Part shown: in pieces, positions 1,580-18,331 of the stretch
How positions within the stretch are numbered: the first letter of the stretch is position 1
Layout: each line of letters begins with the position of its first letter
Assembly: GCA_006227015.1 (NCBI GenBank)
Contig: SBGI01000165.1
Location: 1-21,022 of the forward strand
Direction of reading: 5' to 3'
DNA: 21,022 nucleotides
DNA from: Gammaproteobacteria bacterium
Lineage (GTDB): Bacteria; Pseudomonadota; Gammaproteobacteria; Pseudomonadales; Porticoccaceae
The notes under the pieces: generated by a model
Databases searched by the model: none
The model's input: only the letters and a program-made list of their open reading frames with translations
Told to the model about the DNA's origin: nothing
Made by a program: the position numbers and the translations under genes

Positions 1580-3922
1580 ATGGATGGTAAAGAAAAGAAA
1601 GACCTTAGCGAGATGGACATCTGCGACCTGTTCATCACTCCGGCGATAAAAGACGCCGGCTGGGACCCTATGACGCAAATTCGCCGGGAAGTCACCCTGA
1701 CACCCGGGCCAGTCATCGTTCGCGGCAACCTGTCTTCACGCAACAAGAAAAAGAAGAAGTTCGCCGATTACGTCCTGCAATGGGAAAAGGGTGTCCCGGT
1801 TGCCGTGGTAGAAGCCAAGGACAACAATCACACGGTCAGCCACGGCATGCAACAGGCCCTCGGTTATGCCGAAATCCTTGAGGTTCCCAGTGCCTTCAGT
1901 TCCAACGGAGACGCATTCGCCTCCCACAACAAGGTGGCCATACCCAGTGCAGAGATTGAAACCGAGTTTCCTTTGGATTCATTCCCATCGCCACAACAGC
2001 TGTGGGAGCGTTACAAAATATTCCGAGGTATTACCGACCAGGAAGAACAACTGGTCGTAGAACCCTACTATGACGACGGATCAGGCAAGGAACCCCGCTA
2101 TTACCAAACTGAAGCCATCAACCGCGTTGTCGAAGCCGTCGCCAAGGGCGATAAGCGACTTTTGCTGGTCATGGCCACCGGCACGGGCAAAACCTACACC
2201 ACCTTCCAGATCATATGGCGGCTGTGGAAGGCGAAAAAGGCCAAACGCATACTATTCCTGGTCGATCGCAATATTCTGGCGGACCAGACCCTGGTCAACG
2301 ACTTCAAGCCCTTCGGCTCGGTGATGACCAAAATCAAGAACCGCAAAATCGACACCAGCTACGAAATCTACCTCGGACTCTATCAGGCGCTGACCGGTCC
2401 CGATGAGGAAGACAAAATCTTCAAGTCTGTCTCCCGCGACTTCTTTGACCTAATCGTTATCGACGAATGCCACCGTGGCAGCGCCAACGACGACTCCGCC
2501 TGGCGGGAGATACTGGAATACTTCGACGGCGCCATCCAGCTGGGCCTCACTGCCACCCCCAAGGAAACGGAATACGCCTCCAACATCACCTACTTTGGCG
2601 AGCCGGTGTACACCTACACCCTCAAGCAGGGCATTCAGGACGGCTTCCTCGCCCCGTACAAGGTAGTGCGTATCGACATCGACAAAGATGTCCTCGGCTG
2701 GACGCCACCGCCCGGGATGAAAGACGACCTCGGCAACGAGATTGAACAGCGTGAATACAATCAGTTGGACATGGACCGCATCCTGGTCCTCAACCGCCGC
2801 ACCAAGCTGGTGGCAGAACGGGTCATGAAGTTTCTCAATGCTACCGACCCCTTCCAGAAAACCATTATCTTCTGTGAAGACATCGACCACGCTGAACGCA
2901 TGCGCAAGGCGATCGTCAACGCCGCCGGCAAGCTGGCCGTCGACAACTCCAAATACGTGATGCGCATTACCGGCGACAGCGTGGAGGGCAAGGCGGAACT
3001 GGATAACTTTATCGACCCGGAGAGCAAATCCCCGGTCATCGCCACCACCTCAGAATTGCTCACCACCGGGGTCGATGCCAAAACCTGCAAGTTGATCGTG
3101 CTGGATAAAACCATTAACTCCATGACCATCTTCAAGCAAATTGTCGGTCGTGGCACCCGCATTCACGAGGAACAAAACAAGTACTTCTTCACCATCATGG
3201 ACTTCAAGCGGGCCACCCAACTGTTTCAGGACCCGGACTTCGACGGCGAACCCGTGGTCATATATGAACCCGGTGAAAACGATGATCCGGTGCCCCCCGA
3301 TCCGCCTCCCGGTGACGATGAGGACGACGGCGGAGTGAAAGAGCCCGAAGGTATCTACAAAGTCCGTGTCAGCGGCATCGATGTGCGCATTCTCTCCGAG
3401 CGCGTCGAATACCTGGGGGAAGACGGCAAGATGGTCACCGAAAGCTATCGGGACTACAGCCGCAAGAACATCCGCAAGGAATACGCCTCCCTGGATGACT
3501 TCCTCCGCAAGTGGAACGGCAGTAAAAAGAAAGAGGCCATTATTCAGGCGCTGGAAGAGTACGGCATCGAACTGCCCAAGCTGGCCCAGGAGGTGGGCAA
3601 AGACTACGGCGACTTCGACCTGATCTGCCACATCGCCTTCGACCAGCCACCGCTCACTCGCCAGGAGCGCGCCAACAACGTCAAAAAGCGCCACTACTTC
3701 GCCAAATACGGCGAGCAGGCCCGCGCTGTGCTGGAGGCCCTGCTGGAAAAATACGCGGACGAAGGAATTACCAGCATCGAAAACCCCAAAGTCTTAAAAT
3801 TGCGCCCCTTCGACCAAATGGGCACTCCGGTGGAAATCATCAACAGTGTCTTTGGCGGCAAGGCCAACTACGAAGAAGCCCTTTACGAACTAGAGCAGGA
3901 ACTGTTTAAACCTGCCTCATAA
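1580..3922 (+). CDS. hsdR: Type I restriction enzyme, R subunit (HsdR)
   Basis: A 780-residue motor and nuclease subunit of a type I restriction-modification complex; with two R, two M and one S subunits it translocates unmethylated DNA and cuts it at a distance. The N-terminal PD-(D/E)XK nuclease shows Asp63 and Glu78-Ala-Lys80 (in VAVVEAKD) followed by QALGYA. SF2 helicase motifs follow: Walker A TGTGKT at 200-205, DECH at 295-298, LTATP soon after, and QIVGRGTRI as motif VI. An acidic, proline-rich linker near residues 563-586 (DDPVPPDPPPGDDEDDGG) separates the motor from the C-terminal helical domain that contacts the methylase. Length is slightly below that of EcoKI-type HsdR. The start has only a weak, distant AGGA, so an alternative start is possible. 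hsdM begins 16 bases after its stop, indicating one transcript. No inactivating change is visible. Confidence 0.96.
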   Translation: MDGKEKKDLSEMDICDLFITPAIKDAGWDPMTQIRREVTLTPGPVIVRGNLSSRNKKKKKFADYVLQWEKGVPVAVVEAKDNNHTVSHGMQQALGYAEILEVPSAFSSNGDAFASHNKVAIPSAEIETEFPLDSFPSPQQLWERYKIFRGITDQEEQLVVEPYYDDGSGKEPRYYQTEAINRVVEAVAKGDKRLLLVMATGTGKTYTTFQIIWRLWKAKKAKRILFLVDRNILADQTLVNDFKPFGSVMTKIKNRKIDTSYEIYLGLYQALTGPDEEDKIFKSVSRDFFDLIVIDECHRGSANDDSAWREILEYFDGAIQLGLTATPKETEYASNITYFGEPVYTYTLKQGIQDGFLAPYKVVRIDIDKDVLGWTPPPGMKDDLGNEIEQREYNQLDMDRILVLNRRTKLVAERVMKFLNATDPFQKTIIFCEDIDHAERMRKAIVNAAGKLAVDNSKYVMRITGDSVEGKAELDNFIDPESKSPVIATTSELLTTGVDAKTCKLIVLDKTINSMTIFKQIVGRGTRIHEEQNKYFFTIMDFKRATQLFQDPDFDGEPVVIYEPGENDDPVPPDPPPGDDEDDGGVKEPEGIYKVRVSGIDVRILSERVEYLGEDGKMVTESYRDYSRKNIRKEYASLDDFLRKWNGSKKKEAIIQALEEYGIELPKLAQEVGKDYGDFDLICHIAFDQPPLTRQERANNVKKRHYFAKYGEQARAVLEALLEKYADEGITSIENPKVLKLRPFDQMGTPVEIINSVFGGKANYEEALYELEQELFKPAS

Positions 3923-3938
3923 CGAGTCACAACACAAT

Positions 3939-5441
3939 ATGAGTAACGTCAGCGGTATCATCAAATCCATTCAGGACATCATGCGCAAGGATGTCGGCGT
4001 CGACGGCGATGCCCAGCGTATCAGTCAATTGGTGTGGATGTTCTTCCTGAAAATCTATGACGACCGCGAAGCGGAAATTGAACTGCTTGAGGATGACTAC
4101 AAGTCACCTTTGCCCGAGCATCTGCGCTGGCGCAACTGGGCCGCCGACCCCGAGGGCATGACCGGCGACGAGTTGAGCGACTTCATCAACCTGCAACTTT
4201 TCCCCACCCTGAAAGACAAACTGGTTCTCAGCAGCACACAGGGCCAGCGCGCTCTGGTTATTCGCAACGTGTTTGAAGATGCCTACAACTACATGAAGTC
4301 CGGCACCCTGATTCGCCAGGTCATCAACAAAATCTGTGAGATCGACTTCAACAACACCCAGGATCGCCACACCTTTGGCAGCATCTACGAACAGATCCTC
4401 AAAGACTTGCAGAGCGCTGGCAATGCCGGAGAGTTCTACACCCCTCGCGCCGTGACCCAATTTATCGTCAACCGGGTCGACCCCAAGCTGGAAGAAAGCG
4501 TGCTCGACCCCGCCTGTGGCACCGGCGGCTTTCTCGCCTGCACCATCGACCACAAGGACTCGCGGTATGCCAAAACCGCCAAGGACAGAGACATCCTGGC
4601 TGACAGCATTCACGGAGTGGAAAAAAAAGCCCTGCCGCATATGCTCTGCACTACCAATATGATCCTGCACGGCATCGACACCCCCACCCGAATCGAGCAC
4701 GACAACATGCTCAGCCGGCGCGCCTATACCGATTACGGCGAGAAAGACCGGGTCGATGTGATTATCACCAACCCGCCCTTTGGCGGCATGGAGGAGGACG
4801 GTGTGGAAAACCAGTTCCCCGCCACCTTCCGCACCCGGGAGACCGCCGACCTGTTTATGGCACTGGTGATTAAACTGCTGAAAACCAATGGCCGCGCCGC
4901 CGTGGTACTGCCCGACGGCTTTCTGTTTGGCGAGGGCATGAAAACCCGCCTCAAGGAAAAACTGCTCAACGAGTGCCACCTGCACACCATCGTACGCCTA
5001 CCCAACGGCGTGTTTAATCCCTATACCGGTATCAAGACCAATATCCTGTTCTTTACCAAGAAACCGGAGAGCGAGTGGCCCGCCACCCAGGAAGTCTGGT
5101 TTTGTGAACACCCCTACCCCGAGGGGGTCACCAGCTACAACAAAACCAAACCCATGCGGTTTGAAGAGTTCCAGACAGAAATCGACTGGTGGGGCAGCGA
5201 AGCGGACGGGTTCGAGTCCCGTCAGGAAACCGAACAGGCCTGGAAGGTCAGCCTGGAGCAAATTATCGAGCGCAACTACAACCTTGATATCAAAAATCCC
5301 CATGTGGGCGAACAGATCAGCCACGATCCGCAAGAACTGCTGGCCGACTACGCCCAGCAGCAGGCAGAGATTCAAAGCCTGCGCGATCAGCTGAAAAACA
5401 TTCTGTCAGAGGCCTTGAGCGAAAAAGAGGTCAACGGCTGA
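3939..5441 (+). CDS. hsdM: Type I restriction-modification DNA methyltransferase (HsdM)
   Basis: A 500-residue N6-adenine methyltransferase subunit that protects host sites using S-adenosylmethionine. It has the HsdM N-terminal helical domain (first ~150 residues, opening with SIQDIMRKD), the SAM-binding motif DPACGTGGF starting at residue 190, and the catalytic NPPF at 278-281 followed by Gly-Gly. FYTPRAVTQFIV just before the SAM motif is typical of the family. A C-terminal coiled-coil-like segment (QQQAEIQSLRDQLKNILSEA) probably contacts the specificity subunit. Its TGA shares one base with the ATG of hsdS (TGATG at 5439-5443), so the two are translationally coupled, as expected for subunits needed in fixed ratio. 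Length and motifs are complete and I see no defect. Confidence 0.96.
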   Translation: MSNVSGIIKSIQDIMRKDVGVDGDAQRISQLVWMFFLKIYDDREAEIELLEDDYKSPLPEHLRWRNWAADPEGMTGDELSDFINLQLFPTLKDKLVLSSTQGQRALVIRNVFEDAYNYMKSGTLIRQVINKICEIDFNNTQDRHTFGSIYEQILKDLQSAGNAGEFYTPRAVTQFIVNRVDPKLEESVLDPACGTGGFLACTIDHKDSRYAKTAKDRDILADSIHGVEKKALPHMLCTTNMILHGIDTPTRIEHDNMLSRRAYTDYGEKDRVDVIITNPPFGGMEEDGVENQFPATFRTRETADLFMALVIKLLKTNGRAAVVLPDGFLFGEGMKTRLKEKLLNECHLHTIVRLPNGVFNPYTGIKTNILFFTKKPESEWPATQEVWFCEHPYPEGVTSYNKTKPMRFEEFQTEIDWWGSEADGFESRQETEQAWKVSLEQIIERNYNLDIKNPHVGEQISHDPQELLADYAQQQAEIQSLRDQLKNILSEALSEKEVNG

Positions 5442-7219
5442 TGGGTGCTATAGAAGATCACAGAATGACCACCAAGGTTGCCGGGCATGAAACCGATGCG
5501 ACCAGTGTCATCGTCGACAATCTGGATATCTGGACATCGGCCATCAAAAACAAATCCAGTGCGGGCCGGGCTGGTGGCAGTAAACGCGAGCTGTACGGCA
5601 TCAAAAAGCTACGGGAGTTAATTCTTGACCTGGCAGTGAGAGGACTTTTGGTTCCTCAAGATCCAAATGATGAACCCGCCAGCGAACTGCTAACGAGAAT
5701 CGCCGCTGAAAAAACCACGCTAATCAAAAAAGGCAGGGTTCGAAAACAAAAGTCTTTGGGTGCTGTATCGCAGGCAGAACACCCTTTTGTACTTCCAGCG
5801 GGATGGGAGTGGGTGCGCTTGCAGGATGTAGCATATTCGCAAGCAGGATTTGCTTTCAAATCGAAAGAATTTAATGAGGCAGGAGAAGGCCTTCCTTTGA
5901 TCCGAATAAGGGATGTGGGACAACCTTTTTCAGGAACTTATTACAATGGTGAATATAGAGAAGAGTTTCTAGTTAAAGAGGGAGACTTCTTAATAAGTAT
6001 GGATGGGAATTTTAGAGTTTCCCCTTGGCAAGGAGACCCTGCGCTTTTAAACCAGCGAGTTAGTCGGTTGATATTTTTTGGAGTTGAAATAGCACCAGCT
6101 TTTATCGCCGATTCTTTGCAAATAAAATTATCTGAATTACAGGGTGTTAAAGCGTATACAACTGTAGACCATCTATCTGGCAAACAGATTTCTGAGTCAG
6201 TTATTGGTTTGCCCCCAGCTTCAGAGCAATACCGCATCGTCGCCAAAGTCGACGAGCTGATGGCCCTCTGCGACCAACTGGAACAACAAACCGAAGCCAG
6301 CCTGACTGCCCACGAAACCCTGGTGGAAGCACTGCTGGGCGCACTCACCAACGCTGCCGACCACACCAGCTTCCAGCAAGCCTGGCAACGCATCGCCCAA
6401 CACTTCGACACCCTGTTCACCACCGAACACAGCATCGACCAACTCAAACAAACCATTCTGCAACTGGCCGTCATGGGGAAACTCGTCCCCCAAGCCCCCA
6501 ACGACGAACCGGCCAGTGAATTGCTAAAGCGGATTGCGGCTGAAAAAGCCAAGTTGGCTAAAGAAGGGAAGATTAAAAAACAGAAGCCATTGTCAGATAC
6601 TTCAACTGAAGAACACTCGATTAAACTTCCGAAGAATTGGTGTTTTGCTCACTGTTTGGACATTTGCTCAAAAATTACTGACGGAGAGCACTCCACGCCA
6701 GAGAGATCTCAAGCTGGTCACTACTTGCTATCAGCCAGAAACGTGACAAACGAAGGGATTATTTTGGGTGATGTTGATTATGTTCCGGATCATGAATTTG
6801 AGCGAATTCGAAAGCGATGCGATCCCAACATAGGAGATTTACTAATATCCTGCTCAGGAAGTGTTGGGCGGGTTTCCAAAGTTGACAGAGACAATGCTTA
6901 CTCAATGGTTCGAAGTGCAGCCATGATTCGGCCTTTTGGAAGTCACCTGTCAATTGATTACTTGGCCTATGCCTTAAGAAGCCCCTTTTTACAATCACAG
7001 ATGGTGAAAAAGTCCAAGAAAACGGCCCAAGCTAATTTATTTTTGGGGGCCATTTCATCACTGACTATATCCATACCACCGCTACCTGAACAGACTCGAA
7101 TTGTCAGCAAAATTGAGGAAATGATGGGAATCTGCGATCGACTAAAAGCCCACCTAAACCATGCCCAAACCACCCAACTGCAGCTGGCCGATGCCCTAAC
7201 CGAACAGGTCATCGCCTGA
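5441..7219 (+). CDS. hsdS: Type I restriction-modification specificity subunit (HsdS)
   Basis: A 592-residue protein, longer than the common 400-460, that chooses the bipartite recognition sequence of the complex. It is built as a pseudo-repeat. A conserved block around residues 57-110 (NDEPASELLTRIAAEKTTL) recurs near 330-385 (NDEPASELLKRIAAEKAKL), and each target recognition domain ends with a similar helix (SEQYRIVAKVDELMALCDQL; PEQTRIVSKIEEMMGICDRL). The two recognition domains occupy roughly residues 115-260 and 390-545. Their DNA is clearly AT-richer than the conserved blocks, the usual sign of domain exchange. The start overlaps the hsdM stop, with GAGG about ten bases upstream; a second in-frame ATG at 5465 is an alternative. 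The exact target sequence cannot be predicted from this reading. Confidence 0.94.
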   Translation: MGAIEDHRMTTKVAGHETDATSVIVDNLDIWTSAIKNKSSAGRAGGSKRELYGIKKLRELILDLAVRGLLVPQDPNDEPASELLTRIAAEKTTLIKKGRVRKQKSLGAVSQAEHPFVLPAGWEWVRLQDVAYSQAGFAFKSKEFNEAGEGLPLIRIRDVGQPFSGTYYNGEYREEFLVKEGDFLISMDGNFRVSPWQGDPALLNQRVSRLIFFGVEIAPAFIADSLQIKLSELQGVKAYTTVDHLSGKQISESVIGLPPASEQYRIVAKVDELMALCDQLEQQTEASLTAHETLVEALLGALTNAADHTSFQQAWQRIAQHFDTLFTTEHSIDQLKQTILQLAVMGKLVPQAPNDEPASELLKRIAAEKAKLAKEGKIKKQKPLSDTSTEEHSIKLPKNWCFAHCLDICSKITDGEHSTPERSQAGHYLLSARNVTNEGIILGDVDYVPDHEFERIRKRCDPNIGDLLISCSGSVGRVSKVDRDNAYSMVRSAAMIRPFGSHLSIDYLAYALRSPFLQSQMVKKSKKTAQANLFLGAISSLTISIPPLPEQTRIVSKIEEMMGICDRLKAHLNHAQTTQLQLADALTEQVIA

Positions 7220-7231
7220 TGGCAGACGCTG

Positions 7232-7393
7232 ATGAGCGATAGAGACGCTTTAAAACCCTTGGCGGAGTTGTGCACCGCCGATGTTAGCAACACCTGTTAC
7301 GTGCGCATCGACCGCCAGACCGGCGAACAGCGGCCAGCTACACTGGGGAATAATTACGCCACGCAAGCTATTAACCGTAGGCTCTCCAAATAA
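7232..7393 (+). pseudogene. Broken copy of the start of the HEPN-like gene
   Basis: A 53-codon frame whose first 43 codons align without gaps to the start of the intact gene at 11307; about 30 of 43 residues are identical (for example LKPLAELC and TGEQRP). The DNA match begins at the hsdS stop (7219) and runs about 142 bases with roughly 31 mismatches by hand count, then ends near 7360. The last ten codons are unrelated, up to TAA at 7391. It lies directly between hsdS and the reverse transcriptase. The likely history is that the HEPN gene once followed hsdS directly and the RT gene entered by recombination at this gene, leaving its beginning on both sides. The small peptide is probably not functional. 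Confidence 0.75.
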
Positions 7394-7425
7394 AACTTTA
7401 ACCAGACCCAACAAGAAATCCTCCC

Positions 7426-10400
7426 ATGCCAGTAATTGACAAGAAATATGAAACACTTTCGCTGACCGATGATTATCTCTCAGACCCATTATTAATGGCA
7501 CTGGCATGGAAAAAATCACACGAATACATACGCACTACCAATTGGTATGCGGATCACTTCGACCTCGACCAGACAGCATTGGACCTTGCATCGATCTGTG
7601 ATAAATGGTCCAAGGATATAAAGAACAACCTTACTTTCAAAGATCTTGAGCTGGTACCTGCCCCCAAGGCCTGCTCATGGAAATTTTCAAAACCTGAGAA
7701 GAAAGAATTCTCCTCTAAGAATAAGCAATGTTTAGAATGGATGCCCGAGCACCCAGACAAGGTGAAGCTTAGGCCACTGGCACATATTGACATTAAAGAC
7801 CAAACAATTATGACATTGGTAATGATGTGCCTGGCCAATGAAGTAGAGACCAAACAAGGCGACCCGAGCACACCATACCCAAACGTTCACAAAAAGCGCA
7901 CAGCAAGTTACGGCAACCGATTGTACTGTCGATACACAGATGACAGCGCAGAGTACAGCTATGGCGCCACAACAACCTACAGCAAGTACTTTGGCGACTA
8001 CCGCCGCTTTCTCCAAAGACCTTACCATTTTGCAGGACAGGCTATTCAGGAAAGAACACCGGAAACGGAAGTCTATTTAGTAGACCTGGATCTGGAGAAA
8101 TTCTTTGATCGAATCGACAAACAAAAGCTTATAAGAAAGATCGAAAGACTTGCCAGAACAGACGCCCGAGTAAATAAGGGCATTGCTCGGCAGTCAATTT
8201 GGGATGCCTTCAAAAACTGGAAATGGTCAGAGCAAGCTAGCTTAGACTACGGGACATGCAGCAAAGATAGTACCGAACCGCCACCAAATGGATTACCACA
8301 AGGTCTGGTCGCTTCCGGGTTCCTATCCAATATTTACATGCTTGATTTCGATGACCACATGCAGGATCGCATTGGTACAGATCTAAACTCGGACAAAAGA
8401 TATAACTTTCAAATCAACCTGATTGATTATTGTCGCTATGTGGATGACCTTCGTCTTGTTGTAACCGGTCCGAGTCGACAAGTATTTGGAAGCAGCCCTA
8501 TCTCGATCATCAAAGACCAAATCCTTGCAACACTAGAGCCTAAGCTCAACGAGCTCGAACTATCAATCAATACAGAAAAGACCAAAATCGAGATATACCG
8601 AGGTAAATCAGTAGGTATTTCTAAAAGTCTTGAAGACATCCAGTCTCGGGTAAGCGGCCCCTTGTCTCATGAAGATTCCATTGAGCAACTAAACCAACTT
8701 GAGTCCCTGATGGCGTTAGCATCCACCACCACAGAAGATCAGCCCTCCGAGGGTTGTCGCGTCAACCGACTGGCACAGATAGAGAAAGATATCTTTGATG
8801 TTCGCGAAGACACTTTGAAGCGATTTGCGGCAAACAAGATATCCAGCCTTCTTAGCAGCGTACGCCACTTCACTTCAAGAGATGTAGACGAGGTTGGCTC
8901 CGCCATTCCCGGAGACTGGGATTATCTTCAAGAGCGCCTCGCGAGGCGATTTATTGCTTGCTGGAGTAGAGATCCATCATTGGTCCTGCTTCTGAAAAAA
9001 GGACTTGAATTATTTCCCAGCCCAAGTGTGCTGGAACCGGTTCTTGAACAATTGCATGAGGTGATAGAAACAACTTCCGACGATCGCACAAGGCCGCAAG
9101 CAGTTGCCAGATACTGTCTGGCAGAGATATTCAGGCACTCATCAACAGTTATTCACCGTAAGGACCTCCACGCGATACCAGCTCATGCTGATGTAGATGC
9201 CTATTTCGAAATTCTGCAACATAATGCTATCTCTTTAGTCAAGAAACTGTCGGGTACTGACGACGGCCTAGCGACATTTGACTTTCTTTCTGATCAGGCA
9301 CGATTTCTATTACTCGTGAGGCTAGACACCACCCTTGAACAAAGCAGTGGGCACCCGCATTACGACTTAATTTTCAAATTGGCCGCAGGCTTCAGAAAAA
9401 TATCAGCGCCAAAAAGCTTTGATAGCAGAGACCTGGCAACCTGCATCTTGCTCGCTGGTCAGATTTCAGGCGAAACTAAAGCTTTGATTCGTGCTACCGC
9501 CGAACTACTCGAACAACAGAATGATGTCGAAGTTATCCTCGAAAGACTTGCGGAGCAAAATACTGGATTCCTGCGCAGTCTCGTACTACATGCCCGCCCA
9601 CTCCGCTACGAGTGGGTAAAATCAGAATTCACCAAGAACTTAATCGCCAGGCTCTATTTTGACATTAGGCCATCAGGAAAGTCGCTTTCAGAAATTACAG
9701 AGAAGATCCCTCTTTATAAATTAACATCCAGAAAGGACAACCCATTCAGCAACGAGATCATGGCGCTAAAACTAATGCTCGCGCTGCTCGATAAAGCTGA
9801 TGACATTGCAAGCAAGGCATCCGACCAGGTAATTGACCTTTCAAAAACATCTGTGAAGATTAAGTCAGGAAGCTATTTGCTTGAGTTTTCCACAGTTACA
9901 GATGAGTTGAGTGTGGAAAACATAGCTTTTCACGCCCCTCTTTCCACCATTGCCGCCCATTTAAAAATAGACCACAAAGACACCCTCGTGCTGCAGCGCA
10001 TAGCCTTGTGCATTCGTGCGGCGCTATCCGGTGGAATCGACCCCACTGGTTTTGGTTCATCCATCGAACCAAGAGCTGGATACCGTGGAATTAAATCTAC
10101 TCAATACAAAAGACAAATCGGTTTAATTACCTCGCCAGAAACCCTGATTGGGGAGACCGCTCAGTTTTCCGGCTGGCTATCCACCCTACTCAGTAAGCTT
10201 TTACGGTGGCCAGGAATCAGAGTTAATGATCAGAGCTACGACTGGCCCGTAGAACTCACAATAAAGGCCGTAACCCAACTCGCCCAAAAAAGACTATCTG
10301 TACTTGAGGAACAATATTGCCAGCAAACTGGTATTCCGGGCTTGCTAGAGCGTGTAAAGCTAAATTGGCCAATAGACAAGAAAGAGCTGTCTGTCGCAAT

Positions 10401-11265
10401 GATTCAGTCAAAAATGCCTTCGAAGAATGACTTTTCATTGCATGGGCCATTTTTGAATGACAACCACTATCGCTCAAAGCATCGACGTCATGTGGCCAGA
10501 GTCTCCAAGCTCATTCTGGCGCACATTGAAGCACAACAGCTGGAGACAGGGGATCGTGACGAAGGCAAACAGCACATAGATCTGATTGTTTGGCCTGAAC
10601 TGGCAGTTCACGAAGATGATCTGGGAATATTGGTACAACTTTCCCGAAAGACTCACGCAATCGTATTGGCCGGACTGACCTTCACCCAAATACCTGGTGT
10701 GAAAGGCCCGAATAACTGTGCCGTTTGGATTGTCCCCAGGAAACACAACACCAATCAACAAGAGATTCTCCGTTTACAAGGTAAACACCACATGATGGAG
10801 GGAGAAAAGAAAATCAATATTCAGCCATGGCGGCCATACCAATTAATGCTGGAACTTACACATCCCCAGTATCCTACCCAGAAGGGCTTTGTTCTGACGG
10901 GAGCTATTTGCTACGACGCAACGGATATTGCCCTGAACTCAGATCTGAGAGATAAATCCAACGCCCTTCTGGTTCCCGCACTGAACCGAGACGTGAACAC
11001 TTTTGACTCAATGGTAGAAGCACTTCACTACCATATGTATCAGCATGTTGTGATGGTTAATTCTGGAGAATTTGGTGGTTCTTGCGCAATGGCTCCATAC
11101 AACGAAAGACATAAGCGCTTGATAGCTCATATACATGGCAATGACCAAGTCGGCATAAGCACTTTCAAAATGAATATGTTTGATTTCCGGCGGGATCAAG
11201 TTGGTAAAAGCCTTCAGTCTGGAATGGCGCAAAAGATGCCTCCTGCTGGAGTACCAAAGCCATAA
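7426..11265 (+). CDS. Reverse transcriptase-nitrilase fusion, DRT type 1 (UG1)-like defence protein
   Basis: A 1279-residue protein. The N-terminal third is a reverse transcriptase of the 'unknown group' (UG) type: RPLAHIDIKDQT near residue 118, motif A LVDLDLEKFFD with probable catalytic Asp222, motif B NGLPQGLVASGF at 288-299, and motif C YVDD at 338-341 with both metal-binding aspartates. Residues about 430-1000 are helix-rich with no motif I recognise. The C-terminus is a carbon-nitrogen hydrolase (nitrilase) domain with the catalytic triad visible: Glu1058 in WPELAVH, Lys1120 in GKHH, Cys1162 in GAICYD. This RT-plus-nitrilase arrangement is known for defence-associated RT type 1; the family link is established knowledge, the assignment here is from motifs only. 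It is AT-richer than hsdRM. No clear ribosome binding site precedes the ATG. It sits between a broken and an intact copy of the HEPN gene. I see no msr/msd-type RNA gene beside it. Confidence 0.9.
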   Translation: MPVIDKKYETLSLTDDYLSDPLLMALAWKKSHEYIRTTNWYADHFDLDQTALDLASICDKWSKDIKNNLTFKDLELVPAPKACSWKFSKPEKKEFSSKNKQCLEWMPEHPDKVKLRPLAHIDIKDQTIMTLVMMCLANEVETKQGDPSTPYPNVHKKRTASYGNRLYCRYTDDSAEYSYGATTTYSKYFGDYRRFLQRPYHFAGQAIQERTPETEVYLVDLDLEKFFDRIDKQKLIRKIERLARTDARVNKGIARQSIWDAFKNWKWSEQASLDYGTCSKDSTEPPPNGLPQGLVASGFLSNIYMLDFDDHMQDRIGTDLNSDKRYNFQINLIDYCRYVDDLRLVVTGPSRQVFGSSPISIIKDQILATLEPKLNELELSINTEKTKIEIYRGKSVGISKSLEDIQSRVSGPLSHEDSIEQLNQLESLMALASTTTEDQPSEGCRVNRLAQIEKDIFDVREDTLKRFAANKISSLLSSVRHFTSRDVDEVGSAIPGDWDYLQERLARRFIACWSRDPSLVLLLKKGLELFPSPSVLEPVLEQLHEVIETTSDDRTRPQAVARYCLAEIFRHSSTVIHRKDLHAIPAHADVDAYFEILQHNAISLVKKLSGTDDGLATFDFLSDQARFLLLVRLDTTLEQSSGHPHYDLIFKLAAGFRKISAPKSFDSRDLATCILLAGQISGETKALIRATAELLEQQNDVEVILERLAEQNTGFLRSLVLHARPLRYEWVKSEFTKNLIARLYFDIRPSGKSLSEITEKIPLYKLTSRKDNPFSNEIMALKLMLALLDKADDIASKASDQVIDLSKTSVKIKSGSYLLEFSTVTDELSVENIAFHAPLSTIAAHLKIDHKDTLVLQRIALCIRAALSGGIDPTGFGSSIEPRAGYRGIKSTQYKRQIGLITSPETLIGETAQFSGWLSTLLSKLLRWPGIRVNDQSYDWPVELTIKAVTQLAQKRLSVLEEQYCQQTGIPGLLERVKLNWPIDKKELSVAMIQSKMPSKNDFSLHGPFLNDNHYRSKHRRHVARVSKLILAHIEAQQLETGDRDEGKQHIDLIVWPELAVHEDDLGILVQLSRKTHAIVLAGLTFTQIPGVKGPNNCAVWIVPRKHNTNQQEILRLQGKHHMMEGEKKINIQPWRPYQLMLELTHPQYPTQKGFVLTGAICYDATDIALNSDLRDKSNALLVPALNRDVNTFDSMVEALHYHMYQHVVMVNSGEFGGSCAMAPYNERHKRLIAHIHGNDQVGISTFKMNMFDFRRDQVGKSLQSGMAQKMPPAGVPKP

Positions 11266-11306
11266 TCTCTCAATCCAAGGGGCATGAAATTACATGGCAG
11301 ACGCTT

Positions 11307-12065
11307 ATGTGTGATAGAGACGGCTTAAAACCCCTGGCCGAGTTGTGCGCCGCTGATGTTCGCAATACGTGGTATGTGCGCATCAACCGTGAGACAGGCG
11401 AACAGAGACCGGTCACAGTGGAAGACCACTACACCGAAATAGAACGCTACCCCCTGCACGACAAAGTACCCGATAAAATTGCCACCCAGTACGATGTCGC
11501 CCGCAACCTCTACCTCTACGCCTGGTTTGAATACCGCTTTTTTAACATCGCTGAAGCTCAGGTGCTGACCGTACTGGAACTGGCCATGAAAAAGCATATT
11601 GGTGAGACAGAGATAAAACGCTATATCAAACAACGCAACGACGAACACAAGGCCAAGACAGGGAAAGGAGGCGGTCTTCGTAATGGCATGAAAACCCTGA
11701 TGGAATACTGCCGCGATCATAAGCTGATCTGTAATGAAGGCTTTTCAGCCTGGCGTCGCAACGCCACTCAAATGGCTTACAACAAGGCCCAAGCCGAACA
11801 GAGGCAATGGGCTATTGAAGAAATGGACCGCACCGGCCAAACCGAACTTGAACTGCCCGAGATTGATGTCGAAATACTGCCACCGGACCCAAACTACGAC
11901 TATGTCCAATTTCTGGTCGATAACGTCAATCAACTGCGCAACCACTACTCCCACGGCAGCACCACGCTCCACAATCAGGTGCTCTGCCAGTTTGAAATGG
12001 TTTCCGAATTTATCAACCAGCTATACTACCGGGCTGGGTCGCAGGCAGACAACGCAGCGAGCTAA
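11307..12065 (+). CDS. HEPN-like protein with R-x4-H motif, possible abortive-infection RNase
   Basis: A 252-residue, mostly helical, soluble protein. Near the C-terminus RNHYSHGS provides an R-x4-H motif (Arg211 to His216), the signature of HEPN domains, many of which are RNases in toxin-antitoxin, CRISPR or abortive-infection systems. The preceding YVQFLVDNVNQL and following QFEMVSEFINQLYY suit the two helices that present this motif. No other domain is recognised; the family is uncharacterised to me. It starts 41 bases after the RT stop, and its first 130 bases recur upstream of the RT (7232). No Shine-Dalgarno lies next to the ATG; a six-codon frame beginning at 11294 overlaps the start and may couple translation. 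Its place after the restriction genes and RT suggests a defence effector or accessory. It could instead be a non-catalytic HEPN partner. Confidence 0.72.
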   Translation: MCDRDGLKPLAELCAADVRNTWYVRINRETGEQRPVTVEDHYTEIERYPLHDKVPDKIATQYDVARNLYLYAWFEYRFFNIAEAQVLTVLELAMKKHIGETEIKRYIKQRNDEHKAKTGKGGGLRNGMKTLMEYCRDHKLICNEGFSAWRRNATQMAYNKAQAEQRQWAIEEMDRTGQTELELPEIDVEILPPDPNYDYVQFLVDNVNQLRNHYSHGSTTLHNQVLCQFEMVSEFINQLYYRAGSQADNAAS

Positions 12066-12089
12066 ATCAATACATAAAGCGAGGGACTG

Positions 12090-13151
12090 ATGGCAGTACA
12101 ACACGGTATATGGAAGATCGGCGCGCAGCCACAGGCACTGAAACCCGTCAAACTCGACACTGAACTTCTGTTAGAAGAGCAAATCTCCAAGGACATCTCT
12201 ATCCTCAATGCCAACTGGCTGTTGATTGGTCGTCAGGTGTACACAGACTTTGGCAAACCGCTGGACCTGCTCGCGGTAGACGCCTCCGGCTCACTGATTG
12301 TGATTGAGCTGAAAAAACACCGCACACCACGGGATGTGGTGGCCCAGACCATTGATTATGCCTCCTGGGTGGAAAGTTTAAGCTCTAACCGCATCGTCAG
12401 TATCTACAAACAATTCGCCGAAAAATACGACCTCGCTGAACGCAATTTTGATAGAGCGTTCCAGGCCAAATTCGGCTATTTGCCCAGTGAGCAGGACATC
12501 AACAGCTCCCACCAGATGGTGGTGGTGGCTGCAGAGTTGGATGCCAGTACCGAGCGGATCATCAACTACCTAAACGACAAGGCCAATGTGGCGGTGAACG
12601 CCGTATTCTTCTCCGTATTCGAAGATGGCGGTAATCAATACCTGAGCCGAGCCTGGATGATCGATCCCGGTGAGACTGAAGAGAAAGCCATCAATGTCGG
12701 CTCGAAAGGGCAATGGAATGGCGAGTACTACGGTTCTTTTGGGCCATCGTACAGCTGGGAAGATGCCCGTAATCACAATTTTATTTGTGCGGGCGGAGGC
12801 AATTGGTACAGCAAGACGTTATTTATGGTCGAGCCCGGAGACCGGGTTTGGGTGAACATTCCCAAAACCGGTTACGTGGGCGTTTGTGAAGTAAAAGATC
12901 GAGCGATTGTGGCCGATGAGTTTATTCAACCGGAAATGATGCTAAAAGGTAGCTACCGCACGGCGGCAGACAATGGCGAAGATAACGCAGATTATTTTGT
13001 GCCGGTGAAATGGATAAAAACGGTGCCTGAAAAGCAGGCCGTCAGCGAAGTCGGCCTATTCGGCAACCAAAACTCCATTGCCCGCCCCAAGGCCGAAAAG
13101 TGGCAACACACGGTTGAGCGCTTGAGCCATATATGGGGATTAACGCTTTAA
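12090..13151 (+). CDS. NucS-like PD-(D/E)XK nuclease with C-terminal EVE/PUA-like domain
   Basis: A 353-residue protein. The N-terminal half has a restriction-endonuclease fold signature of the NucS/DUF91 type: Asp59 in LDLLAVD, then Glu73-Leu-Lys75 in IVIELKKH, followed by QTIDYASWV. The C-terminal half (about 195-320) has GDRVWVNIPKTGYVGVCEV and YFVPVKWIKTVPEKQAV, resembling EVE/PUA-like domains that bind modified bases in DNA or RNA. A nuclease joined to such a reader suggests modification-dependent cleavage, which is inference. It is preceded by GAGGG four bases before the ATG and lies 24 bases after the HEPN gene, so it is the last gene of the operon, followed about 105 bases later by a strong terminator. 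The nuclease assignment is fairly firm; the reader-domain assignment is weaker. Confidence 0.75.
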   Translation: MAVQHGIWKIGAQPQALKPVKLDTELLLEEQISKDISILNANWLLIGRQVYTDFGKPLDLLAVDASGSLIVIELKKHRTPRDVVAQTIDYASWVESLSSNRIVSIYKQFAEKYDLAERNFDRAFQAKFGYLPSEQDINSSHQMVVVAAELDASTERIINYLNDKANVAVNAVFFSVFEDGGNQYLSRAWMIDPGETEEKAINVGSKGQWNGEYYGSFGPSYSWEDARNHNFICAGGGNWYSKTLFMVEPGDRVWVNIPKTGYVGVCEVKDRAIVADEFIQPEMMLKGSYRTAADNGEDNADYFVPVKWIKTVPEKQAVSEVGLFGNQNSIARPKAEKWQHTVERLSHIWGLTL

Positions 13152-13255
13152 CTACTGAATATCTAAAGAATCAACAGTAGCGTAACCAGCTGGGACTAGA
13201 GCTGATACCCTCAAAATTAAAACGCCCACCTAAAAATGATTCAGAAATAAAAAAA

Positions 13256-13284
13256 GGCTCCAACCGAAGTTGGAGCCTTTTTTT
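13256..13284 (+). terminator. Strong intrinsic terminator closing the hsd/RT operon
   Basis: A perfect nine-base-pair stem, GGCTCCAAC and GTTGGAGCC, with the stable tetraloop CGAA, followed by seven T (13278-13284). A long A run on the left side makes it work in the other direction too, where it would follow the tRNA-like 3' end at 13288-13309. Confidence 0.9.
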
Positions 13285-13287
13285 AGA

Positions 13288-13309
13288 TGGTGCCAAGGCC
13301 GGACTTGAA
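13288..13309 (-). other. tRNA-Leu-like 3'-end remnant, probable attachment-site core
   Basis: Read on the minus strand this is a T-loop (TTCAAGT) running through CCTTGGCACCA, as in the 3' end of bacterial tRNA-Leu. The T-stem partner strand on the other side (GCTT... instead of a complement) is absent, one base of the stem is missing, and no anticodon arm follows. So it is a fragment, not a tRNA gene. A tRNA 3' end from the T-loop to CCA is the classic core for tyrosine-integrase insertion, and the terminator at 13256 fits a former tRNA 3' flank. Confidence 0.65.
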
Positions 13310-13613: not shown

Positions 13614-13679
13614 TCTTAGGCTGCTTTGGGGAGAAGCAATGCTGTTGCTTCTAATTAGTCATCAGGGAAAGCAGGAAGT

Positions 13680-15026
13680 TCACAGTAAGGATGTAATAGC
13701 AGGCATCCCCACCAATTCGGACATAACTGGTATTTTCAATTGGCTAGCTGTCAACTGGTTTAGTGGCAAGGTACTGCCCTCCGGCAGTAACAGTTCGTCA
13801 TTATCAAGATCAAATGGCACTACATTTAGCTGCATATTGTCATCAAATACAAATGGCGCCAACGGGGCCTGAAATTTGCGCCATGCAGGGTAAATGAGCG
13901 TCAGCTCTCCTTGACCGCCAAGGTATCGCTGACCGTAGGCAAACAGCTGGTAAAAATCAGACTGACTCAGACTGTAGTTTTGTTTGCGATCATCCGCGTC
14001 CAATCGCTTCCACTTAGTATCCAACACCCAGCGACGGCCCCCCTGCTCAATCAGCAAATCTGGTCGCAACTGAAATATCGGCTGCGCCTGATGCCGGCAC
14101 AGTGCATGGCGGCTAGCTTGAGTTGTCAACTGGGTCGATGGAGCCAGATGACGCCTCAGCCAGGTAGACACGTAGTCTTCAAACAGCTTTTCCATCGGAA
14201 AAAGCAGACTAATGCCACGATACTCTCCAACAACTGATAGTGGCATCTGACGATACAAAATCAGCTCACACCACGGTTTTACGTGCTGGTAGTGTGCCAT
14301 CAGACGTTCGTTACGCCAGCGGCGGAAGTCTTCCGCTATATCGTGGCTGGTGGGTATGTCATGCAGAATACCCCCCAACTCGTGTGCCAAACGCCAGTTA
14401 TCAGCATCCTGTGTTGTTTGGCAGACCAACATCAGCGCGCTTTTTAGAAGACGGTTTTCAGGCCGATCCGGCAGAAACACATCATGGCGAATATGAAAGC
14501 GATGTCGTCGCCCGGGCGGCTGGCGCATCTGCTTTACCACGTCCAGCTGGCCACGGAGGTAGTACTGTTCCTCCTCTAACCGCTGGTAGTCAAAGCGCAG
14601 ACCACGCTTTACCAGATATTCCAATGCCTGCAAAAACTGGCGTATGACCCATTCAGCCAATGGAGCACGGTAAAGTTGTAACCCGGCAGGCGAAGTCTCG
14701 CGTTTAGATATGTCCAGTGCACCGGCTATTAGCTTGCACAGCAGCTCTCGGGAACGGTGCTCACAATCACCTTCATCGTGGTGCTTCGGCAGGATTTCGA
14801 TCACCTGCCCGCATGGGCTTTCAAGCACTCCTACGAAATTGTCTAACCGCAACCAACGCTGGCCATGCAGTTGCAACAGCTCTGTACCGGAGCGGCGAAA
14901 GCCTTCTGCCAACTCGCACAGCCAGTCAAATGCAGTTTCGCTGATCTGCGCCTCATCCAACGTATTACACGACAAATAACCTGTGGTCAGGCGCGCATAC
15001 TCCCGCACCACGATGGGGGCAAGCAT
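13680..15026 (-). CDS. mcrC: McrC, nuclease subunit of a modification-dependent restriction system
   Basis: A 448-residue protein. McrC supplies the nuclease of the McrBC complex and stimulates the McrB GTPase; the complex cuts DNA carrying modified cytosines in the classic system. The PD-(D/E)XK centre is visible as RPDLLI with Asp323, then VLDTKWKR with Asp336 and Lys338, the normal D-x-K form for McrC. The N-terminal DNA-mimic or interaction region and the conserved YHGISLLFPMEKLFEDYV-type segment (here EYRGISLLFPMEKLFEDYV) are present. Its ATG at 15026 shares one base with the mcrB TGA (TGATG), so the two genes are coupled. Length is above that of E. coli McrC (about 350) but usual for the wider family. 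No defects seen. Confidence 0.92.
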   Translation of the reverse strand: MLAPIVVREYARLTTGYLSCNTLDEAQISETAFDWLCELAEGFRRSGTELLQLHGQRWLRLDNFVGVLESPCGQVIEILPKHHDEGDCEHRSRELLCKLIAGALDISKRETSPAGLQLYRAPLAEWVIRQFLQALEYLVKRGLRFDYQRLEEEQYYLRGQLDVVKQMRQPPGRRHRFHIRHDVFLPDRPENRLLKSALMLVCQTTQDADNWRLAHELGGILHDIPTSHDIAEDFRRWRNERLMAHYQHVKPWCELILYRQMPLSVVGEYRGISLLFPMEKLFEDYVSTWLRRHLAPSTQLTTQASRHALCRHQAQPIFQLRPDLLIEQGGRRWVLDTKWKRLDADDRKQNYSLSQSDFYQLFAYGQRYLGGQGELTLIYPAWRKFQAPLAPFVFDDNMQLNVVPFDLDNDELLLPEGSTLPLNQLTASQLKIPVMSELVGMPAITSLL

Positions 15027-18000
15027 CAGACTTCTGCCTTGTTGTCCGCCAGTTGATCTGCACTGGCCATGGTGATACTGCGATAGGCCACGATATTATC
15101 GAATGCCTTGTCATTGAGCATCCAACCCGAGGAAGGTCGCAGCTTGTCCTGCATGCCGACGAATAGTGTTGGGATATTAAGAGTACGGTCTTCCAAGATG
15201 AAGGCGGCATCGATCGGCTTATTCTGATCGTTTAGCACCCAACGAATGCGCTCCCAGTCTTCAAAAAAATACTCTTGCAATAACGGTATGATGTTTTGAC
15301 GAAAAATATCTGCCAATCGCATCAACGATGGATCTTCGCACAGCGGTAGGAAATAGGCATGACCTAAGCAGTGATCCCTATCCAATAGCACGGTGATGCG
15401 TTGGTTCATCATCTGAAGCATCTGGCCGATATTGACCCCATCAACCACCACTCCATCCAGCAATTCTGGGAGTGGCGGTGTTTCTTTAAAAGTAAAACGG
15501 CGACGTAACGCAATGTCGAGACCCGCCAGCGAGCGGTCGGCCGTATTCATTGTGCCAATTAGGTAAATATTGGCCGGGACACTAAACAAATCTTTCGAAT
15601 AAGGTAGCGTCACAGATAGCGCCTCTGCCCCCCCGGCACGTTTTGACGGCTCAATCAGCGTGATCAACTCCCCGAAAATGCGCGAGATATTGCCACGGTT
15701 GATCTCATCTATAATCAGCACCCGCGCATTTGTAGATGCGACCTGTTGATTATCAACACCGTTGGCATTGAGAAGAAATTCAACTAAAGATGGCAGGATG
15801 TTGTTGTAGCCATTTACTAAATATGGCTCCAAACTGGATGGGGAGAGTTTTTCTATCGCTTCCTTCTGACGAATGTCTTCAAGAGTAATCTTTCCCGCCC
15901 TTATCCCTTCAGCTAAAGTATCGAGCATACTCATTGAGAAACCGATTAAATTTCCATTCGGTTTCTTCAATTCCAAAAGCTCTTTGCTAGCTTTAATGAC
16001 CTGGTAATTGGTACCAAATAGTTGTCCTATATGAAACGGGCTTAGATCAGTAGTCAGGGCTGGAGCACCTAAAAGGGCCAATAACTTGCCCTTATCCAGT
16101 GTGGGACTACGAAGCTCATACAGTGTCATCTGGCTGAACTGGGCGTTAAGTAACTCACTGTGAGGCAACGAAGGAGTGTACTGGCGCAACCATTTCACCG
16201 GCCGCATTTGTGTGTAGTCATCCTCATATTCAGCATGGGGCTTGTACTGGTAGTCTCCTGTAATCTCACCAACTGCACGAAACTTAAAATTACCATCACT
16301 TACCACCACCAAATCACCCACCTTCATTCTGGTAACAAAGGCAGTGACACTAGTCAGGTTATAATCGTTGTTGCCATTGAGCTGGACACCCGCATTCTCA
16401 AAGCGTTGCTGGATGTCTGCACGGCTATGGCAGTTACTAAAGTCGATGTCCCCCCCGTAACCCAGCAACACATAACCGTTTTCTGAGCACTCGTCGTAGA
16501 TGCCTGCATCGCTCCCCAGTGTATTGCCTAACGACATTTTCCATACTGTGCGACCTGTCAGTTCCAGTGGCGCCGCCTCTTGGCGAGTTACTTTGACATC
16601 TGCTAACTCACACAGGCTCTTGAACACGCCATCCACCACCTCGTAGCGGATTTGCCCTGAAGACTCGTCAGTTACGGCGCGCAAACCTTCCACAAAGTCC
16701 TCATAGCTGAAGCTTTGATGAAATGTGACAAACTTGATTCGATTTTCAGCACATAGCTGATCAAAATGTGCTTTGAGAACTTGACGAGCTTCCCGCTGAT
16801 CCTGGTATGTTGTCGCGGCAACCAGTGCTTCGTCGTACTTTTCAACGGCCATAGGGCTGAGTATTTTCAGCGCAGCTCGAACGGTTCCGTATGTTTTTCC
16901 CGTACCCGGTGGACCGAAAAGGATTTGATTCAGCGGTTGTTTATTCATAATCTCTTTTCCATCTAGCTGGGCTGCATATTTATTGTCGGTGAAAGTTTTA
17001 TCCGACCCTTGCCCCTTTATCGACATTGAATAGTGACTATCATTGAGCCTAGACAAGGTCACTTTGTCGCCTTCAACAAGCTGCAGGTGCTTGAAGAGAC
17101 TGTTGAATCGGGCCTTTATTCGCCCTCGATTAGCAAGTAAACAGGTACTGACCTGAGTCCCATCCGGCAAATCGAGAGTAAACAATGTCGCAGCGGCTTG
17201 CTCGTCGTCTGCAATATTCTCGGCTGAAAACAAAACTTGTTGCTTAGGAATGCTGACATAGCCATTTCGGATTGCGCCAGCCGTCAACGTTACGATCAGC
17301 TCGTCTTGTGAGCTACTGTCGTCGTCGCTATCTTCCTTTAGGGGAGCCAAGCCCAGATTCTGCGAATACAACCCACGCATGAAGCCGACCGGGGTCAGTT
17401 CAGGAACTACTTCCTTCGCCAAAAACATGTACTGGCGCAAAATTAGCATGCGAGCTACCGGCTCATTGACAGCAGGCATATCTGCAATGGGGTAACCCAA
17501 CTGCTCCAGAAAATGACCTAGGTGAGAAGACGAGCTTATCGGTAAAGCAGTATCGGGATGATAAACAGAGAGCAATCTGAGCTTTCGACCATTCCCAATG
17601 GTTACACGCGGCTCCACACCAGCTCTGCGGTATAGCTCATTATCATCGTCTAGCCAAATCCAATCCTCACTTTCCTCTGTTGAGGCAACGGCAGCCTGAA
17701 TCGCTAAGGTATAGAGAAGTGCTTCTTCGTCGCTAAGACTCGATAGATAGCGATTCTTGTAAACTGATCCATCTGGCATAAAGTACAGGATATGGCCACG
17801 CGAGGTGCCAGGCATATAACGACCGAGCAAAGGCTGCAAACCTCGCTCCAACCACCAACAAAAAGACTCACCGTCACCTTTGCCTACACAGTATTCGCTT
17901 AACGTCAGCTCGGGCAGCCTCGAAGGCGGAAAACGCTGGATAAATTGCTGATAGAGCGGATCGTCAGAAGGCCTGACCATAACGGCAGGCCCCATGCTTT

Positions 18001-18055
18001 TCAATTCAGTCAACAGCCGCTGAAACTGTGGGCTTGTCGGCAACGTCATATTCAC
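15026..18055 (-). CDS. mcrB: McrB, AAA+ GTPase subunit with an EVE-like insertion
   Basis: A 1009-residue protein, more than twice E. coli McrB. It would bind modified DNA and drive translocation with GTP. The AAA+ motifs of the McrB family are clear: Walker A GPPGTGKT at 381-388, Walker B LIIDEINRGNISR with Asp783-Glu784, and MNTADRS starting at 836 followed by ALRRRF. Walker A and B lie about 400 residues apart, against roughly 75 in E. coli, because of an insertion. Within it residues about 504-625 (GYVLLGYGGDIDF, MKVGDLVVVSDG, FRAVGEITGDY, RPVKWLRQY) resemble an EVE/PUA-like reader domain. The N-terminal 350 residues are unassigned, with an acidic stretch EDSDDDSSSQDE. The start is the GTG at 18055, overlapping the upstream small ORF by four bases (GTGA); an ATG two codons later is an alternative. 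Confidence 0.92.
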   Translation of the reverse strand: MNMTLPTSPQFQRLLTELKSMGPAVMVRPSDDPLYQQFIQRFPPSRLPELTLSEYCVGKGDGESFCWWLERGLQPLLGRYMPGTSRGHILYFMPDGSVYKNRYLSSLSDEEALLYTLAIQAAVASTEESEDWIWLDDDNELYRRAGVEPRVTIGNGRKLRLLSVYHPDTALPISSSSHLGHFLEQLGYPIADMPAVNEPVARMLILRQYMFLAKEVVPELTPVGFMRGLYSQNLGLAPLKEDSDDDSSSQDELIVTLTAGAIRNGYVSIPKQQVLFSAENIADDEQAAATLFTLDLPDGTQVSTCLLANRGRIKARFNSLFKHLQLVEGDKVTLSRLNDSHYSMSIKGQGSDKTFTDNKYAAQLDGKEIMNKQPLNQILFGPPGTGKTYGTVRAALKILSPMAVEKYDEALVAATTYQDQREARQVLKAHFDQLCAENRIKFVTFHQSFSYEDFVEGLRAVTDESSGQIRYEVVDGVFKSLCELADVKVTRQEAAPLELTGRTVWKMSLGNTLGSDAGIYDECSENGYVLLGYGGDIDFSNCHSRADIQQRFENAGVQLNGNNDYNLTSVTAFVTRMKVGDLVVVSDGNFKFRAVGEITGDYQYKPHAEYEDDYTQMRPVKWLRQYTPSLPHSELLNAQFSQMTLYELRSPTLDKGKLLALLGAPALTTDLSPFHIGQLFGTNYQVIKASKELLELKKPNGNLIGFSMSMLDTLAEGIRAGKITLEDIRQKEAIEKLSPSSLEPYLVNGYNNILPSLVEFLLNANGVDNQQVASTNARVLIIDEINRGNISRIFGELITLIEPSKRAGGAEALSVTLPYSKDLFSVPANIYLIGTMNTADRSLAGLDIALRRRFTFKETPPLPELLDGVVVDGVNIGQMLQMMNQRITVLLDRDHCLGHAYFLPLCEDPSLMRLADIFRQNIIPLLQEYFFEDWERIRWVLNDQNKPIDAAFILEDRTLNIPTLFVGMQDKLRPSSGWMLNDKAFDNIVAYRSITMASADQLADNKAEV

Positions 18056-18282: not shown

Positions 18283-18331
18283 AAACACTCCCTAAAATAT
18301 GGCTTTGTGCAACAGTTTTTTTACGTTTATG

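Follow-up and report, generated by a model that had tools for sequence, protein, structure and literature searches.

How does a reverse transcriptase gene come to stand inside a restriction operon with the start of one and the same gene on both of its sides? This question is raised by positions 1 to 21,022 of contig SBGI01000165.1 (assembly GCA_006227015.1, a Gammaproteobacteria bacterium of the Porticoccaceae), a stretch of 21,022 nucleotides referred to below as the window. It carries a type I restriction-modification (RM) operon in which hsdR, hsdM and hsdS are all complete, adjacent and on one strand. Behind hsdS follow the gene of DRT1, which is a reverse transcriptase (RT)-nitrilase, a gene for a protein with a predicted HEPN fold (hereafter HEPN) and PDC-S11, a NucS-like nuclease-domain gene (hereafter S11); the first bases of HEPN occur a second time, between hsdS and DRT1. 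The answer argued here is that the 3' end of the type I operon, from the hsdS stop to the S11 start, is probably a slot for exchangeable genes (its cargo), several of them anti-phage, and that the joins in the window came about in the way proposed below. Its grounds are the variable content of the slot, an uninterrupted relative of the operon, the divergence between the two HEPN starts and the scars that precede other DRT1 genes. Loci and genomes used for comparison carry L and G numbers. The parts of the window operon are as follows.

1580..3922, plus strand: hsdR, type I restriction subunit (PADLOC REase_I 1106 bits; Pfam EcoEI_R_C)
3939..5441, plus strand: hsdM, type I methyltransferase subunit (Pfam N6_Mtase 5e-79; 89.3% identity to the HsdM of L015)
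5441..7219, plus strand: hsdS, type I specificity subunit and left edge of the cargo slot (PADLOC Specificity_I 1e-190)
7219..7360, plus strand: left copy, a relic of the spacer and HEPN codons 1-43 (111/142 to 11294-11435; colinear with the hsdS-HEPN joint of L015)
7232..7393, plus strand: 53-codon open frame made of the relic and unsourced bases (list of open reading frames, ORFs)
7361..7425, plus strand: left junction, 65 bases with no source found (sequence comparisons)
7426..11265, plus strand: DRT1 reverse transcriptase-nitrilase, 1279 codons, cargo (PADLOC Drt1a E 0; PDB 9yfd E 5.7e-150; motifs)
11266..11293: spacer between the RT gene and the right copy
11294..11306, plus strand: 13-base hsdS-HEPN spacer travelling with the right copy (aligns with the left copy and L015)
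11307..12065, plus strand: intact HEPN gene, cargo, predicted RNase fold, R211-x4-H216 (motif; pLDDT 93 model)
12090..13151, plus strand: PDC-S11, NucS-like nuclease-domain gene and right edge of the slot (PADLOC PDC-S11 8.8e-137; Pfam NucS_C below cut-off)

The slot between the restriction genes and S11

In a survey of 293 genomes from the order of G251, S11 was found in 17 at an E of 1e-40 or better, and all 17 contexts were read. Type I-like RM genes stand upstream of S11 on the same strand in 11 of these 17 loci. S11 follows the RM genes directly in three of the 11 (behind hsdR in L067, behind hsdS in L068 and L072), and in the remaining eight the space between RM genes and S11 has eight different contents:

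L060: SIR2 domain
L061: Gabija GajAB
L062: PrrC/RloC-like AAA_13 ATPase and three more frames
L063: PDC-S53 helicase
L064: MoxR and vWA genes
L065: YgjP
L066: DUF3800/PDC-M04A
L034: DRT1

The window has two such genes in a row at this place, DRT1 and then HEPN. The matches of the hsd queries in L061-L065 and L067 are distant (about 21-32%), and Pfam confirms hsdS or hsdR in five of these six: hsdS in L061, L062, L064 and L067, and hsdR before S11 in L067 and before YgjP in L065; L063 rests on tblastn only.

The borders of the exchanged segment can be followed by comparing operons in pairs, and they fall on gene ends or close to them. L034 and L068 differ by DRT1; their match ends 54 and 27 bases short of the hsdS stops and returns no more than about 21 bases from the S11 starts. 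Between the window and L060 the match resumes 2 bases ahead of the window S11. L035 and L066, with HsdM 96% and HsdR 92% identical, diverge 7 and 10 bases short of their hsdS stops and have different genes thereafter, and a common 75-base stem-loop-, terminator-like element of 93% identity (L035, oriented 14188-14262; L066, 13228-13302) closes the exchanged segment. Beyond these genomes, six S11-bearing plasmid regions were taken from 87 matched records; type I genes lie beside S11 in L079, L080 and L081 (divergent in L081), BREX genes in L078, and none obvious in L076 and L077. A single short match was the only S11 DNA found in E. coli.

The spacing of the window operon resembles that of co-transcribed genes: from hsdS to S11 the gaps between ORFs are 12, 32, 41 and 24 bases, with the non-RM defence genes on the RM strand. 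No plus-strand sigma-70-like site was found in the spacer before DRT1 or before HEPN, and the whole stretch has five such sites against 11.5 expected; spacers of this kind, the one finding that bears on the supposed takeover of the operon's transcription by the RT, are compatible with read-through and are no proof of it.

The two HEPN starts, the left junction and the scars

The sequence-only reading had seen, directly behind the hsdS stop, 142 bases that recur without gaps and at about 78% identity at the start of the intact HEPN gene. This repeat is real: 7219-7360 matches 11294-11435 at 111 of 142 positions (78%), the best of 300 dinucleotide shuffles reaching 63/142, and blastn of 7100-7500 against 11200-13300 aligns 7219-7346 with 11294-11421 (104/128, no gap, E 5e-30). 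It sets in at 7219, where the hsdS stop codon has its final base, and homology fades past 7360; HEPN with its spacer is the sole homology that blastn found between the two sides. As had also been said, the RT gene lies between the copies, accompanied by the two spacers 7361-7425 and 11266-11293. The left ORF shares the HEPN frame for 43 codons and runs on for 10 further codons in unsourced sequence; it has neither the HEPN domain nor the Rx4H motif. Since the full-length AlphaFold model aligns to HEPN folds at about residues 51-252, the duplicated part is the N-terminal segment ahead of the HEPN domain.

An operon with hsdS directly before HEPN and no RT, for which a search had been suggested, exists in L015, a locus of a Spongiibacter relative (G251), where hsdR-hsdM-hsdS is followed by HEPN, starting 12 bases past the hsdS stop, and further downstream by McrB- and McrC-like genes. 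Its HsdM and HsdR are 89% and 86% identical to those of the window, which aligns to L015 in one piece over 1582-7360 and again over 11294-12019. Because hsdR-M-S of L015 runs directly into HEPN, the left copy in the window is to be seen as a truncated HEPN start. The original order hsdR-hsdM-hsdS-HEPN-nuclease, as once proposed, is thus found as far as HEPN, while the gene downstream is uncertain (McrBC-like in L015, S11 in L001). In the HsdM tree, of 10 rows only and with the positions of L016 and L038 unsure on long branches, the window pairs with L015 (98/96) and L060 comes next (84/99); these three close cores have three different tails. An uninterrupted operon matching the left copy in particular was not met with, as L015 is nearer to the right copy.

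DRT1 itself was followed through 390 genomes, 10 of which, with a DRT1-like match of E 1e-100 or below, gave an RT context; L042 matches in the nitrilase part only. Three of the 10 have hsdR-M-S directly upstream of DRT1 (L034, L035, L038), and in L033 a type I operon lies upstream, its last gene, a Pfam-confirmed hsdR, ending 448 bases before DRT1. L040 has an hsdM-like match farther upstream, and L037 and L039 have none. S11 stands directly behind DRT1 in L034 and L033. In two contexts, L036 (oriented 8238-8480) and L041 (oriented about 8616-8905), DRT1 is preceded by a scar, in which the start of hsdR is fused in frame to the end of hsdS; the scar frame ends 10 bases before the DRT1 start in L036 and overlaps the DRT1 start in L041. 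The genome of L041 holds, about 22 kb from the scar, an intact hsdRMS-S11 operon (L072), to which the scar is 87% identical at the hsdR end (265 bases, upstream region and start) and 81% identical at the hsdS end (88 bases). Related operons can therefore coexist in one genome, and DRT1 can persist after hsdRMS has been lost. As a separate observation, L036 contains S11 twice, as a C-terminal remnant behind DRT1 and, farther upstream in that locus, as an intact gene (pair 7266-7430 / 13632-14729).

How the left copy arose turns in part on its age. If DRT1 had inserted into one HEPN gene with duplication of the target, or if HEPN had been duplicated in tandem, and the left copy had then decayed, one would expect a remnant of the start to the left of the RT and the whole gene to its right; moreover, unique changes are most numerous in the left copy (18, against 11 and 9 in the other two), which has lost two well-kept residues, R19 (kept in 27/28 and 39/40 aligned rows) and H41 (26/28 and 35/40). 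Against this, L015 is not clearly outside the left and right copies, the three being near equidistant (left-right 111/142, left-L015 113/142, right-L015 120/142) with star-like site patterns (9/11/18). The changes between left and right are, besides, mainly synonymous: 8 nonsynonymous and 14 synonymous among 22 changes over 36 codons, with a dN/dS of about 0.09, and 13 and 17 over 43 codons. Simulated duplication with neutral decay of the left copy, at rates of our own choice (omega 0.08, kappa 2), gives a mean nonsynonymous share of 0.64; none of 171 draws was as low as the observed 0.36 (36 codons), and for the observed 0.43 (43 codons) p was 0.005 in 198 draws, whereas two constrained genes fit the observed changes (p 0.17 and 0.08 for 36 and 43 codons). 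Insertion or duplication followed by decay is thus unlikely, and a recent tandem duplication with decay, against which the 22% divergence had been cited earlier, was rejected by the codon simulation. A mainly synonymous divergence implies that the left start was part of a working HEPN for most of that time, and the comparison favours two long-separated working alleles that would have been brought together, as had been supposed. The low dN/dS, the open frame and a start 12 bases past the hsdS stop, as in L015, would also suit a 53-codon frame kept for its own sake, for example as a peptide resembling the HEPN N-terminal segment that restrains HEPN. This we hold to be very improbable, given the loss of R19 and H41, the lack of any homologous small protein in a word-based search and of any similar sequence ahead of DRT1 in the remaining RT loci that were read.

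The left junction bears on the mode of joining. For 7361-7425 no source was accepted among the loci compared, including nine RT leaders, 11 hsdS ends, HEPN, S11, the RT start and McrC; the lowest uncorrected p values were 0.076 (S11 of L001) and 0.086 (L034 leader), and p was 0.15 when the 11 hsdS ends were scored by their maximum; a resemblance of its final bases to the leader of DRT1 in L034 is visible to the eye only. The sequence-only reading had the RT enter as a passenger of homologous exchange exactly within the HEPN start, and the presence of two diverged alleles in one operon, with HEPN and its spacer as the sole homology between the sides, agrees with this. Yet such a crossover would yield one hybrid HEPN and no truncated copy, whereas the left copy gives way to 65 bases with neither RT nor HEPN homology; entry by recombination inside the gene start is therefore unsupported, and we rate it as improbable as insertion with decay. 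Its docking point for the swapping of defence genes survives in a wider form, in that the joint of the last RM gene and the nuclease varies in content. An assembly chimaera of two strains would account for a left join that is absent from any second record seen, but we judge 78% identity to be low for collapsed reads, records list the window HEPN protein on 4 contigs and the RT protein on 5 (though this is no proof of the left join), and joins of a comparable sort occur at the two scar loci, which belong to other assemblies; a chimaera is accordingly the faintest of these prospects.

Several observations nevertheless weigh against the slot with the joins proposed here. Outside the window, no DRT1 gene that was read has HEPN as its neighbour: RT-HEPN pairs similar to the right copy, once expected, are absent from the 10 RT contexts, and the searches turned up no donor of the order RT-HEPN-S11. 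The 65 bases in front of DRT1 gave no match in any of the comparisons tried, those with hsdS ends and RT leaders included, and the left frame is still mostly under coding constraint, which a small functional gene would fit too. Among the slot contents, the YgjP, MoxR-vWA and DUF3800 genes are unproven as defences. Searches returned no type I genes in 5 of the 17 S11 loci (L069, L070, L071, L073, L074), of which L071 starts near a contig end and L074 has a C-terminal S11 fragment only; the S11 locus of L036 has a scar only, and in L066 the terminator-like element lies between cargo and S11. Extra genes also occur at other places in these operons: the interval from hsdS to hsdR holds TIR-STAND and RhuM-like genes in L065 (9252-11792) and a YhcG-type nuclease in L067, a 280-codon frame separates hsdR from hsdM in L068, and in L016 hsdS and hsdM flank a retron pair. 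The joint of RM genes and S11 is hence one favoured place for cargo, and not the sole one.

The cargo proteins and S11

The window RT protein matches PDB 9yfd_A over residues 1-1257 (E 5.7e-150) and PADLOC Drt1a with an E of 0. Its CRYVDD motif at 336-341 (with Y338-D341) and its E1058, K1120 and C1162 are invariant in 19 aligned sequences; we take Y338-D341 to be the YxDD of the RT, and the other three to be the Glu-Lys-Cys catalytic residues of the nitrilase. In viral contigs DRT1 gave no match at a first search and four in a later one.

For HEPN, the assignment as a predicted RNase fold comes from a second-look structural alignment and a motif. The AlphaFold model (pLDDT 93) aligns to HEPN structures over residues of about 51-252, while Foldseek gave no match below E 0.001, and R and H of the motif R211-N-x-Y-x-H216 (Rx4H) are invariant in 40 homologues. 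No Pfam or NCBIfam model reaches the window protein, and the 40 aligned homologues show weak matches only, Apea-like in six and RiboL-PSP in three; alignment A1 is without L017 and L018, whose HEPN is about 33% and 30% identical. HEPN is sparse: in whole genomes it was found at E 0.001 or better in 10/389, 4/369 and 6/293 (mostly weak, in overlapping samples), at 1e-20 in 1/125, and at 1e-40 or better beyond the contig of the window in four genomes only (G251, G001, G222, G572). Phages gave none and plasmids two weak matches; viral contigs gave none with the single sequence and two distant ones with the alignment.

S11 matches the PDC-S11 profile of PADLOC over 1-351 (8.8e-137) and misses the NucS cut-offs (Pfam NucS_C, 21.5 bits against 24; NCBIfam NucS, 23.6 and 23.8 bits against 216 and 252). 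A sequence comparison with PDB returned a single match of E 0.68, taken as chance. In the S11 tree, which is without the fragment of L074, the window S11 is sister to the S11 of L001, a HEPN-S11 pair (98/97), and the RT-linked S11 of L033 and L034 fall in another clade (96/95); HEPN and nuclease thus exist as a unit without RT. In L001 (574-11831) this pair lies behind a type III RM locus with a DrmD-like helicase and AbiU-like genes, and so it crosses RM types.

Some neighbouring features may be added. L016 (8945-18915) has a retron III-A pair (phosphoribosyltransferase-like gene and RT) between hsdS and hsdM and, behind, HEPN and PDC-S02; here a type I operon with HEPN at its tail encloses an RT defence of another kind. 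In the window, a gene with RhuM and Fic domains (298-1359) lies just upstream of hsdR on the opposite strand, and McrBC-type genes with a 78-codon frame (13680-18288) lie just behind S11 on the minus strand; these McrBC-type genes are only distantly similar to the McrBC behind HEPN in L015.

Proposed history and relation to known systems

A history that would unite these data begins with an operon hsdR-M-S-HEPN, like that of L015, beside or meeting a related operon with DRT1 ahead of HEPN-S11. A deletion or illegitimate join would then have fused the first HEPN start to bases just ahead of DRT1; such a join is inferred because hsdR::hsdS scars precede DRT1 in L036 and L041. The slot genes would be read as members of the operon, and cargo may keep its place because it depends on the upstream promoter and on ribosomes coming from hsdS or from a scar. 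The layers would presumably be cumulative, with restriction of unmodified DNA, then DRT1 through its nitrilase effector, then the RNase-like HEPN and S11.

Defence genes embedded in RM operons are already known; the reused slot between RM genes and S11 and the stacking of cargo would be a new variation on this theme. HEPN genes accompany RM systems, as does PrrC in the PrrI type Ic locus according to PMC3710099, and PMC11411939 describes TgvAB as embedded in a type I operon of V. cholerae VPI-2 and active against phages; PDC genes are candidates from 'guilt by embedding', as told in PMC12988326. The window shares with these a second defence gene, placed within a restriction operon or at its end, which would be a further layer. 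It differs in that one joint, that of the last RM gene and S11, is reused with varying content among close operons, in that two cargos are stacked, and in that truncated genes mark earlier rearrangements. DRT1 (UG1, PDB 9yfd) makes untemplated, protein-primed DNA and acts via its nitrilase, according to PMC13275509; the window protein resembles it by a full-length match and retained RT and nitrilase motifs, and has no drt1b gene behind it, like most DRT1 operons according to that paper, but it sits behind hsdS of a type I operon with HEPN and PDC-S11 following. The HEPN protein resembles the MAE_28990 and RiboL-PSP families by its fold and Rx4H, and two of its relatives are so named by UniRef; unlike these families, it is reached by no Pfam or NCBIfam model. 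The matches listed in the literature included nothing on the slot from hsdS to PDC-S11 or on DRT1 scars, although the preprint behind the PDC genes (Payne 2024) may describe the slot, and the part seen of PMC8934634 holds nothing on UG1 with RM operons.

A broader proposal may be put forward tentatively, and with distinctly less confidence than the slot itself. The joint of RM genes and S11 might be a selected expression dock, through which defences of one or two genes (DRT1, HEPN, SIR2, Gabija, PrrC-like and others) are traded between restriction operons, across types I and III, with S11 as the common partner of any cargo and with truncated starts and scars as footprints.

Defence genes cluster, and the way in which a new arrival comes to be expressed is seldom visible. 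Here, what follows hsdS differs between close restriction cores (HsdM 96% identical), and the joins have left their record in broken gene starts. The slot makes it testable whether a gene arriving behind hsdS would be expressed at once, by the promoter of the operon and translational coupling, and whether S11 may work with every cargo; inspecting the genes that separate PDC-S11 from the last RM gene would also be a way to find new defence genes.

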